A stretch of 51,035 bases of DNA, from NCBI GenBank assembly GCA_012521815.1, contig JAAYLR010000103.1:1-51035 (forward strand), in the 5' to 3' direction. Of this stretch, positions 5,645 through 10,155 are shown one piece after another. The position numbers were made by a program, and so were the translations under genes. The stretch is from Acidobacteriota bacterium (GTDB lineage: Bacteria > Acidobacteriota > Thermoanaerobaculia > Multivoradales > JAGPDF01). The notes beneath the pieces were generated by a model. The model saw nothing but the letters and a program-made list of their open reading frames with translations, ran no database searches and was not told the DNA's origin. Each line of letters begins with the position of its first letter. Positions within the stretch are counted from its first letter, which is position 1.

Positions 5645-7246
5645 CTACTGCAGGAACTCTTTCGTGGTCCGGAAGCGGATCCGCGGCCAGTCTTCCATGG
5701 CCGCCTGGAGCCGCCAGGCGGAGGGGGCGAGGTAGACCGGATCGCCGTGGACGTCGTCGGCGAGATGGGGGGAGAAAGCGGTGAGGAACCGCTTCAGCTC
5801 CCCCTCGTCGTCGGCCTCGAGCCAGCGGGCGGTGTGGAGGCTGGTCGTCTCGAAGCGGGCCTCGAGCTCGTACTCGGTGCGGATCCGGTCGGCGAGGACG
5901 TCGAACTGGAGCGGTCCGGCCACCCCCACGATCCACTCGTTGCCGACGCGGGGGCGGAAGACCTGCGCCGCCCCCTCTTCGGCGAGCTGCTGGAGCGCGC
6001 GGCCGAGGTGCTTGGCGCGCAGCGGATCGACCGGACGCACCCGCTGCAGCAGCTCCGGCGCGAAGGAGGGGATGCCGGTGAAGCGGAGCGACTCTCCTTC
6101 GGTGAGGGTGTCGCCGATCCGCAGCAGGCCGTGGTTCGGGATCCCGAGGATGTCGCCCGCGTACGCCTCCTCGGCGAGCTCCCGCTCGCGGGCGAGGAAG
6201 AGGACCGGCGTGTGCACCGCGAACTGCCGGCCGGCGCGCACGTGCCAGAGCCGCATGCCGCGGGTGAACCGCCCGGAGCAGAGGCGCACGAAGGCGATCC
6301 GGTCGCGGTGCTTCGGGTCCATGTTCGCCTGGATCTTGAAGACGAAGCCGGAGACCGCCGCCTCGCCGGGCTCGACGGTCCGTTCCCGCGCCGGCGCGGG
6401 GCGCGGCGGCGGGGCGAGCTCGACGAGCGCGTCGAGCAGCTCGCGCACCCCGAAGCTGTGGAGGGCGGAGCCGAAGAAGACCGGCGTCATCTGCCCGGCG
6501 CGGTACGCCGCCGGGTCGAAGGCGGGGTAGCCGCCGGCGGCGAGCGCCACCTCCTCGCGGAGCTGTTCGAGGGCATGGCGCGGCAGCAGCGTGGCGAGCG
6601 CGGGGTCGTCGAGGCCGCTCACCCGCGCCCGCTCCACCGGCCGCTGCCCGCCGCCGCGGTCGAGCAGCACGAGGCCGTCGTCGAGCAGGTCGTAGCAGCC
6701 GAGGAACTGCCGCCCGGCGCCGACCGGCCAGGTCGCCGGGGTGACGTCGAGCTGCAGGTCGCGCTCGACCTCGTCGAGGAGCGAGAACGGATCCCGCCCT
6801 TCGCGGTCGAGCTTGTTGACGAAGGTGACGATCGGCACGTCGCGCAGCCGGCAGACCTCGAAGAGCTTGCGCGTCTGCGCCTCGATCCCCTTGGCGGCGT
6901 CGAGCACCATCACCGCCGAGTCGACCGCGGTCAGGGTGCGGTAGGTGTCCTCGGAGAAGTCCTGGTGCCCGGGGGTGTCGAGGAGGTTGAAGGTGCAGCC
7001 CCGGTAGTCGAAGGTCATCACCGAGGCGGAGACCGAGATGCCGCGCTCCTGCTCGACCCGCATCCAGTCGGAGTGCGCCCGGCGCCGCTCGCCGCGCGCC
7101 CTGACCTCGCCGGCGAGCTGGATCGCGCCGCCGAGCAGGAGGAGCTTCTCGGTGAGCGTCGTCTTCCCCGCATCGGGGTGGCTGATGATCGCAAAGGTGC
7201 GCCGGCGGGCGACTTCGGCGGCGAGGCGGGTCATGGCGGAGGTCAT
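5645..7246 (-). CDS. prfC: Peptide chain release factor 3 (RF3)
   Basis: MTSAMTRLAAEVARRRTFAIISHPDAGKTTLTEKLLLLGGAIQLAGEVRARG; ERGISVSASVMTFDYRGCTFNLLDTPGHQDFSEDTYRTLTAVDSAVMVLDAAKGIE; start placed at 7246 rather than the longer ORF. Confidence 0.95.
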   Translation of the reverse strand: MTSAMTRLAAEVARRRTFAIISHPDAGKTTLTEKLLLLGGAIQLAGEVRARGERRRAHSDWMRVEQERGISVSASVMTFDYRGCTFNLLDTPGHQDFSEDTYRTLTAVDSAVMVLDAAKGIEAQTRKLFEVCRLRDVPIVTFVNKLDREGRDPFSLLDEVERDLQLDVTPATWPVGAGRQFLGCYDLLDDGLVLLDRGGGQRPVERARVSGLDDPALATLLPRHALEQLREEVALAAGGYPAFDPAAYRAGQMTPVFFGSALHSFGVRELLDALVELAPPPRPAPARERTVEPGEAAVSGFVFKIQANMDPKHRDRIAFVRLCSGRFTRGMRLWHVRAGRQFAVHTPVLFLARERELAEEAYAGDILGIPNHGLLRIGDTLTEGESLRFTGIPSFAPELLQRVRPVDPLRAKHLGRALQQLAEEGAAQVFRPRVGNEWIVGVAGPLQFDVLADRIRTEYELEARFETTSLHTARWLEADDEGELKRFLTAFSPHLADDVHGDPVYLAPSAWRLQAAMEDWPRIRFRTTKEFLQ

Positions 7247-7401
7247 CGCTCCCCGGCGCGGGCTGCCGCGGGCGGGCGGAGGTGGGGTTGCCGGCGAAGG
7301 TGGCGCATCGGATCGTCTCCCGCGGCGGTCGCCTCCGGCGGCCGCGAGGGGGGAGGATGGTATCAACCCCGGGCGCCCGCCGGCAGCATCGCCTCCGGAC
7401 G

Positions 7402-7443
7402 AACAAAGGCCCCGGCCCGCACGCGGCGGGACCGGGGCCTCGG
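7402..7443 (-). terminator. Strong GC hairpin followed by TTTGTT on the minus strand; terminator or attenuator between the sORF and prfC
   Basis: Minus strand GGCCCCGGTCCCGCCGCGTGCGGGCCGGGGCCTTTGTT. Confidence 0.65.
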
Positions 7444-7521
7444 GTTCGTATCGGCGGCGCTGGGTTGCCCTCTGTCGTCGAGGGCCCCCCCGCGGCGCGA
7501 CGTCCGCCCCAGGAGGTACCT

Positions 7522-7569
7522 CTAGGAGGACGCCACCTCCACGAAACCAGGTTGACGACTACTGTCCAC
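7522..7569 (-). CDS. Candidate 15-aa sORF/leader peptide (V/M)DSSRQPGFVEVASS*
   Basis: GTG start 7 nt after GGAGG in AAGGAGGTGGTCCA; TAG stop; six consecutive A/T-ending codons (AGT AGT CGT CAA CCT GGT) in a strongly GC3-biased window. Confidence 0.45.
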   Translation of the reverse strand: MDSSRQPGFVEVASS

Positions 7570-7694
7570 TGGACCACCTCCTTCCTGGGCGTGTCCGTCG
7601 GCGGCGGGCCCCACCCCGCCCGGTCCCTTGGGCCGCCCGAGCCTCTTCGGGACCGCCGCGTCGTCCCTCCCGGACGCGCGGATGGATCCCGTGC

Positions 7695-7723
7695 ATCCTC
7701 GGCCCCGCCGGGCGTTCTGTCAA
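7695..7723 (-). promoter_or_regulatory. Possible promoter TTGACA-17-GAGGAT upstream of the sORF
   Basis: Minus-strand TTGACA (7723-7718), 17-nt spacer, GAGGAT (7700-7695); -35 perfect, -10 weak. Confidence 0.4.
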
Positions 7724-8745: not shown

Positions 8746-8757
8746 TCCAGACTCGGT

Positions 8758-8831
8758 CGGGGCGTAGCGCAGCCAGGTAGCGCACCTGCCTTGGGCGCAG
8801 GGGGTCCCCAGTTCAAATCTGGGCGCCCCGA
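8758..8831 (+). tRNA. tRNA-Pro(TGG), CCA not encoded
   Basis: Acceptor CGGGGCG/CGCCCCG, anticodon loop CTTGGGC, T-arm GTTCAAATC. Confidence 0.95.
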
Positions 8832-8905
8832 GATTCGAAAGCCCGCGCCGCCCGCGGCCGAGCGGTCGGCTGGCCGGACGTCGCTGGAGAGACCGAAACC
8901 AGGGG

Positions 8906-8982
8906 CTGCCTGTAGCTCAGCTGGATAGAGCGGCGGCCTTCTAAGCCGCGGGTCGGGGGTTCGAGTCCCTCCAGGCAGGCCA
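8906..8982 (+). tRNA. tRNA-Arg(TCT), CCA encoded
   Basis: Acceptor CTGCCTG/CAGGCAG, anticodon loop CTTCTAA, terminal CCA. Confidence 0.95.
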
Positions 8983-8999
8983 ACTTTGAGCAGTCGAGC

Positions 9000-9075
9000 G
9001 GTGAGTGTAGCTCAATGGTAGAGCACCGGACTGTGGCTCCGGACGTTGTGGGTTCGAGTCCCATCACTCACCCCA
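9000..9075 (+). tRNA. tRNA-His(GTG), CCA encoded, G-1 at 9000
   Basis: Acceptor GTGAGTG/CACTCAC with extra G-1:C73, anticodon loop CTGTGGC, terminal CCA. Confidence 0.95.
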
Positions 9076-9084
9076 ATCTTCTTC

Positions 9085-9161
9085 GCGCCCGTAGCTCAGC
9101 TGGATAGAGCGACGGCCTCCGGAGCCGTAGGTCAGAGGTTCGAATCCTCTCGGGCGCACCA
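9085..9161 (+). tRNA. tRNA-Arg(CCG), CCA encoded
   Basis: Acceptor GCGCCCG/CGGGCGC, anticodon loop CTCCGGA, terminal CCA. Confidence 0.95.
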
Positions 9162-9821: not shown

Positions 9822-9854
9822 GCCCGCCCCGCCATGCCGGCCGGGCGGGCTTTT
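9822..9854 (+). terminator. Rho-independent terminator after the 9278 CDS
   Basis: GCCCGCCC (9822-9829) pairs with GGGCGGGC (9843-9850), then TTTT. Confidence 0.75.
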
Positions 9855-9868
9855 GACAACCAGCGCCG

Positions 9869-10032
9869 CGGTGACCCGGCTCTCAGGCCGGGTCGATGAG
9901 GGAAGCCGGTGCGAGACCGGCGCGGCCCCCGCCACTGTTACCGGGGACGAAACCGGGGATGCCACTGTGCCCGCGAGGGCATGGGAAGGCCCGGGAGTAG
10001 GGAGATCCGGAAGCCAGGAGACCTGCCGCGTG
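9869..10032 (+). promoter_or_regulatory. Cobalamin (adenosylcobalamin) riboswitch
   Basis: GGGAAGCCGGTGCGAGACCGGCGCGGCCCCCGCCACTGT core and GAAGCCAGGAGACCTGCC; upstream of a btuB-like gene. Confidence 0.93.
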
Positions 10033-10155
10033 CGCCCGATGCCACGATCCCCCGGGGTGCGGGGAGACGGGCGTGGGGCGTCCGCCGGACGCCCGGCCCC
10101 CCTCCCGCCAACCCGTTCCGATCGCGGCCTCGGTTTCCGAGGTCAGGAGCACGCG

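Follow-up and report, generated by a model that had tools for sequence, protein, structure and literature searches.

prfB-type autoregulation and leader-peptide attenuators combine a short open reading frame (ORF), whose translation interacts with RNA structure, with a terminator that follows it, and tmRNA combines pseudoknots with a short ORF whose stop codon lies in a hairpin arm. The closest known system to the locus described here is the Caulobacter sRNA CC2171 (RF01867), which is uncharacterised. Small RNAs with an ORF of 14–15 codons also include Spot 42 and rnTrpL/peTrpL, as they appear in PMC10117765, whose reference list holds the precedent of a 15-amino-acid protein from the Spot 42 sRNA. 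Unlike Spot 42 and rnTrpL/peTrpL, the element that we describe carries its ORF in every homologue, the N-terminal residues of that ORF drift, and the end of the ORF lies in the main helix.

The element lies on the minus strand of an acidobacterial contig, all 51,035 nucleotides of which were analyzed (hereafter the window), and at ~285 nt has the size of a self-contained RNA gene with its own promoter and terminator. Its -35 box, TTGACA (7718–7723), is kept here as TTGACa in aligned relatives and overlaps the stop codon of an upstream epimerase-like ORF, which ends at 7720; 17 nt separate it from a -10-like GAGGAT (7695–7700), a weak match to the consensus. An extended Shine-Dalgarno sequence (SD), AAGGAGGTGGTCC (7571–7583), complements the 16S 3' tail GGAUCACCUCCUU with one G-U pair and precedes a micro-ORF encoding VDSSRQPGFVEVASS (7522–7569), which has a GTG start at 7569–7567 and 15 codons before a TAG at 7524–7522 and is kept in relatives. 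A long G+C-rich hairpin followed by TTTGTT (7402–7440), recognized by direct reading and by folding, forms an intrinsic terminator, and prfC starts near 7246 on the same strand, ~155 nt past it. The original prediction had named these parts (promoter-like TTGACA-N17-GAGGAT, SD, GTG ORF, hairpin plus TTTGTT, then prfC), and all of them are where it placed them on this strand. The combination of promoter-like boxes, extended SD, 15-codon ORF and terminator is far beyond chance. Elsewhere in the window, the plus strand carries a strong cobalamin riboswitch (9852–10045, 111.7 bits), upstream of TonB-dependent receptor-like and periplasmic binding protein-like ORFs, and a cluster of four tRNAs (8757–9161), Pro(TGG), Arg(TCT), His(GTG) and Arg(CCG).

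A blastn search with 7402–7700 found the element in 32 of 40 related genomes, and an alignment of 24 relatives keeps the -35 box, 5' domain, SD, ORF, 3' strand and terminator. Conservation of the sORF and the SD in relatives, on which the prediction had been staked, is strong in both the search and the alignment. A pattern scan (AGGAGGTGRTC, a gap and GGAGGTGGCGNC; one genome per species) returned at least 119 stretches, a clear majority of which were true elements. Carriers among the matches listed were Thermoanaerobaculia, Vicinamibacteria(les), Holophagales, Krumholzibacteriia, Latescibacterota, Eisenbacteria and Gemmatimonadota, according to the titles of MAG records, single ones of which may be wrong. 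The exact pattern occurred in at least 20 of 297 Acidobacteriota, including one apparent chance match within a coding region (G206), and the reversed control pattern had no matches. A covariance model of the element, R1, found one strong copy per genome (E 1e-15 to 1e-29) in 11 of 11 pattern-reached genomes, a result that speaks to copy number and fit and not to independent discovery, because some of these sequences had also gone into the training of R1. With few candidates scored per genome, R1 was positive in at least 25 of 199 Acidobacteriota at E below 1e-8. A plasmid search with the element gave no match. By these comparisons, the element is an RNA gene common to several bacterial phyla.

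Two departures from this distribution were seen. G224, a 98%-complete single-contig genome from genus g6, to which many carriers also belong, has neither an exact pattern nor an R1 match, an absence among element-bearing congeners that may be due to loss or divergence. In L007 (SD near 1521), the 5' pseudoknot domain is apparently replaced and a TTGACA stands just upstream of the SD region; this odd copy seems to be a deletion or a misassembly.

Only one of 200 shuffled sequences folds as well as the 295-nt window RNA or better (z –2.5). Comparison of relatives confirmed the ~120-nt structured leader that had been proposed between promoter and SD, and showed that it forms a conserved domain with a pseudoknot. 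It comprises hairpin H1 (7656–7681), in which CCGCG at 7681–7677 pairs with CGCGG at 7660–7656 (95% of cells paired, double changes in four of five pairs), and continues with P2 (7622–7654), in which GGTCCC at 7654–7649 pairs with GGGACC at 7627–7622 (93% paired, double changes in all six pairs). The pseudoknot P3 (7586–7639) joins (C)GGGCG at 7639–7634 to CGCCC(A) at 7591–7586 (79% paired, double changes in five of six pairs) and ends 2 nt ahead of the SD. Between its strands, hairpin P4 (7603–7620) pairs GGCGGG at 7620–7615 with CCCGCC at 7608–7603 (98.6% paired, double changes in four of six pairs). A contact of the P4 loop, UGGG at 7613–7610, with a bulged CCCA at 7464–7461 is possible; it has modest support and may form.

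On its 3' side the RNA has a long arm built in part from the ORF. Its core helix, P5, is formed in the family by GGUGGCGN, within the codons GAG GTG GCG N.., and by NCGCCACC ~70 nt downstream; in the window the 5' strand is GGUGGCGU (7530–7537, codons GAG GTG GCG T) and the 3' strand, identified by the covariation scan and by pair counting, is GCGCCGCC (7453–7460). P5 is paired in 98.7% of cells and mostly invariant, with 10 double changes at its last pair. Above it the arm is extended by P5b, in which the codons after P5 pair with a G-rich block ahead of a conserved AACCCA bulge (in the window CCUC at 7529–7526 with GAGG at 7472–7469, spanning 7469–7529), so that the stop codon follows the 5' strand of P5b. 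Across the family, P5b gave 285 paired positions vs 269 ± 3 in 2000 shuffles; in the window sequence, an alternative local CCUC/GAGG hairpin around the stop is also possible. The stop codon was enclosed by base pairs of the arm in 61 of 62 folds.

Covariation was assessed by mutual information and by pair counting, the kind of analysis that the original prediction had proposed for 7400–7700, and double changes far exceeded those in shuffles. For the named structure (H1, P2, the P3 pseudoknot, P4 and P5) in 58 sequences, 93.2% of cells were paired, double changes occurred in 21 of 31 pairs, and 142 double-change cells were observed vs 33.8 ± 8.7 after shuffling. As a control, sliding the partner strands by 1–3 columns lowered pairing to about 40%. 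In an unbiased mutual-information scan of 64 sequences, pairs belonging to H1, P2, P4, P5 and the terminator were among the highest ranked, with those of the terminator covarying most. The terminator pairs covary on their own and have no alternative partner in the one predicted fold. Covariation therefore supports the predicted pseudoknotted 5' domain, P5 and the terminator. The suggestion that the nucleotide sequence is itself under selection is likewise supported.

The reading frame of the micro-ORF is kept as well. All 63 dereplicated elements have an NTG start 12–15 nt from GGAGG, a distance of 24, 27 or 30 nt from the start to GAG, and a stop 5–6 codons past GAG (TAG in 42, TAA in 13, TGA in 8); three kinds of start codon are used, and the length changes by threes between 13 and 15 codons. 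Because the presence of a stop had helped to define this set, a second test used elements picked by P4 and P5 only, in which a stop stood at the expected place in 59 of 61 cases, vs 2 of 122 in the two alternative frames. The two exceptions were L085, which lies within a long open frame, and L089, also an apparent chance match. Where one to three bases are inserted ahead of the start (L002, L074, L107, L110), the start moves and the frame is retained. The N-terminal residues follow another pattern: 37 nearest-neighbour pairs showed 22 synonymous to 59 non-synonymous single changes in the N-terminal codons, vs 20 to 53 in another frame. Comparative evidence thus indicates that the frame is selected, with no visible purifying selection on the N-terminal residues. 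These codons are 53% A+T, vs 30% in the rest of the RNA across the 63 elements, a richness that is expected for an open initiation region and accounts for the six consecutive A/T-ending codons noticed earlier in the window ORF, which are indeed present and reflect a feature of the family.

The encoded peptides consist of a start, 7–9 variable residues and E-V-A-x-x. The near invariance of E-V-A, together with the retention of frame, start and stop in all elements and the precedent of a 15-amino-acid protein from Spot 42 in the reference list of PMC10117765, would fit a dual-function small RNA or small mRNA whose functional product is the peptide and whose fold regulates its translation. We consider this rather unlikely. 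GAGGUGGCG is nearly invariant as codons and as helix alike, and the apparent E-V-A motif arises because P5 uses the same bases; moreover, the variable N-terminal part lacks purifying selection and the length varies from 13 to 15 amino acids. We therefore rejected peptide conservation as the driver of the pattern, although the C-terminal residues may have a role, since GAGGUGGCG is constrained both ways. A second GGAGGUGG within the ORF could serve as a stalling SD, which we do not claim, as P5 already explains its conservation. Because the N-terminal residues drift, translation itself is more likely than the peptide to be the input; that the frame is translated, and where, appears to matter, and the N-terminal residues little.

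The site at which ribosomes would enter the RNA is unusually complementary to them. The 16S 3' tail reads GCTGGATCACCTCCTTTCT in three element-bearing genomes (the window assembly has no 16S 3' end of its own), and the conserved AAGGAGGTGRTCC(A) complements it over 13–16 nt, with R permitting A-U or G-U. With the tail taken from relatives, the SD-16S duplex, at –31.0 kcal/mol, is the most stable in the 51-kb window; the region ahead of prfC gives –7.1 kcal/mol with the same tail. Over the 63 elements, the mean is –28.9 kcal/mol. Complementarity that exceeds a normal SD across the whole set could mean that the RNA is a decoy, its 13–16-nt complement titrating free 30S subunits and its short ORF only releasing the ribosomes captured, and experiments have shown extended SD helices on the S. 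aureus ribosome (PMC13009471). Such a decoy would leave the conserved pseudoknot domain, and the formation of P5 from ORF codons, unexplained, and a single gene copy would require very high expression; we judge it unlikely.

The main idea of the original prediction was that translation or termination at the sORF tunes read-through into prfC, the gene for RF3, in the manner of prfB autoregulation. In the window the arrangement is suggestive, as prfC, on the same strand, starts ~155 nt after the RNA ends. By tblastn, however, the window locus was the only one of the first 30 fetched in which prfC lies next to the element; the check that had been proposed, whether the element always precedes prfC, thus comes out negative. 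The neighbours in relatives are unrelated, among them glutamate dehydrogenase, RNase E/G, dusB, ilvE, carB, hflX and histidine kinases; they were named by reading the proteins, on heuristic gene calls in which single errors leave the picture unchanged. No conserved neighbour hinting at a pathway was seen among the loci examined, and no position upstream of prfB or prfC is conserved. Orientation of the flanking genes is random (+/+ 13, +/- 14, -/- 14, -/+ 12). A ribosome-mediated attenuator calls for a downstream gene on the same strand; at the 57 loci with a called downstream gene, that gene lies on the same strand in 26 and on the opposite strand in 31. Nor is the stop codon tied to a release factor, since TAG, TAA and TGA are all used. 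The element thus differs from prfB-type and leader attenuators in having no cis-regulated gene, no release-factor gene and no constant stop codon, and the attenuator reading, which is contradicted for the family, is very improbable. Some families of loci do sit beside an RNase E/G-like gene and another beside a glutamate dehydrogenase-like gene (L013, L014, L023–L027 and L002–L009), a sharing of neighbours that is local synteny only.

Unrelated neighbours, together with the element's own conserved promoter and terminator, make the RNA a separate gene, without a link to prfC. The alternative that had been offered alongside the attenuator, an independent small RNA or small protein gene, gains support from the same evidence. 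Sequence comparison leaves us nearly certain that the RNA is structured and encoded by an independent gene, and that its ORF is under selection. That it is a divergent housekeeping RNA (tmRNA, 6S, SRP RNA or RNase P RNA), as a single structured copy per genome and independent transcription might suggest, is scarcely credible, since Rfam 15 at the gathering threshold gave no family for the window element or four distant homologues, ARAGORN, like Rfam, found no tmRNA at this place, and such RNAs are not known to carry an SD-led ORF. From tmRNA in particular, the element differs in its ordinary SD-led initiation and in having neither a tRNA-like domain nor a match to the Rfam model.

CC2171 bears the closest likeness. 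Like CC2171, the window element is stand-alone and has a AAAGGAGGTGATCCA-NTG extended SD, a short ORF and a terminator. The RF01867 model scores it at 31.2 bits (E 7.7e-5), below the cut-off of 75 bits, which none of 21 relatives reached; the shared SD alone can suffice for so weak a score. In the other direction, R1 gave only E values above 0.1 against CC2171-type loci in Roseomonas and Rhodobacter genomes, and neither the 5' pseudoknot domain nor the GGUGGCG/CGCCACC helix is present in the CC2171-type loci examined. We do not claim common descent, because what the two have in common is chiefly the SD and the search in the other direction was negative. Scanning 115 alphaproteobacterial genomes with the pattern AAAGGAGGTGRTCCANTG gave 11 matches, all 11 of which combine an extended SD, an ORF of 18–30 codons and a terminator, and CC2171 itself is probably a coding mini-gene. 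In these alphaproteobacterial loci (L178–L188, SD at about 1500), the peptides often begin MSH.. or VSHCH... Two further loci, L086 from Pirellulaceae (minus strand near 2461) and L126 (plus strand near 1513), at first looked like members and have an extended SD, an ORF of 12–13 codons and a terminator, with GGAGGUGGCG present and GGAGGTGGCG in another frame. R1 misses L086, and both were omitted as members; they may be another, independent realization of this plan. Searches of the openly accessible literature found no description of an RNA like the window element.

Taken as a whole, the element is best explained, at about an even chance of being right, as a stand-alone ribosome-engaging RNA that acts as a translation/folding switch. 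Comparison supports a pseudoknotted 5' domain followed by an SD that matches the whole 16S 3' tail and serves an ORF of 13–15 codons, with the final codons making up one strand of the long 3' arm, P5/P5b. A ribosome would be captured very tightly and then initiate. From the geometry, a ribosome initiating on the SD and GTG would leave P5 intact, and one that reaches the stop codon would have to melt P5 and P5b. Because the stop could be reached only by opening P5/P5b, a folded arm and complete translation probably exclude each other. The output might be, for example, that the 3' strand of the arm is exposed, or that the stability of the RNA itself changes, when ribosomes are available. That the RNA works in trans as such a switch or sensor, responding to ribosome or 30S availability, is plausible at somewhat less than an even chance. 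More tentatively, it may be a new kind of trans-acting RNA for which the ribosome is the signal, the translation of a nearly content-free ORF flipping the arm after a pseudoknotted platform has captured the 30S subunit by its full tail. It is similarly doubtful, and worth stating as a conjecture, that this RNA reports either the availability of ribosomes or the condition of the 16S 3' end and, with CC2171, represents a so far unrecognised functional class of 'maximal-SD' sORF RNAs in several phyla.

Conserved structured RNAs without an assigned family are uncommon. What is new here is a structured RNA gene, present in several phyla, that carries an ORF in every copy and uses the end of that ORF in its core helix. 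This makes testable whether a free-standing bacterial RNA could take as its input the translation of an ORF and not the ORF's product, and it suggests that the Rfam 'sRNA' CC2171 may be a coding mini-gene with this docking site.
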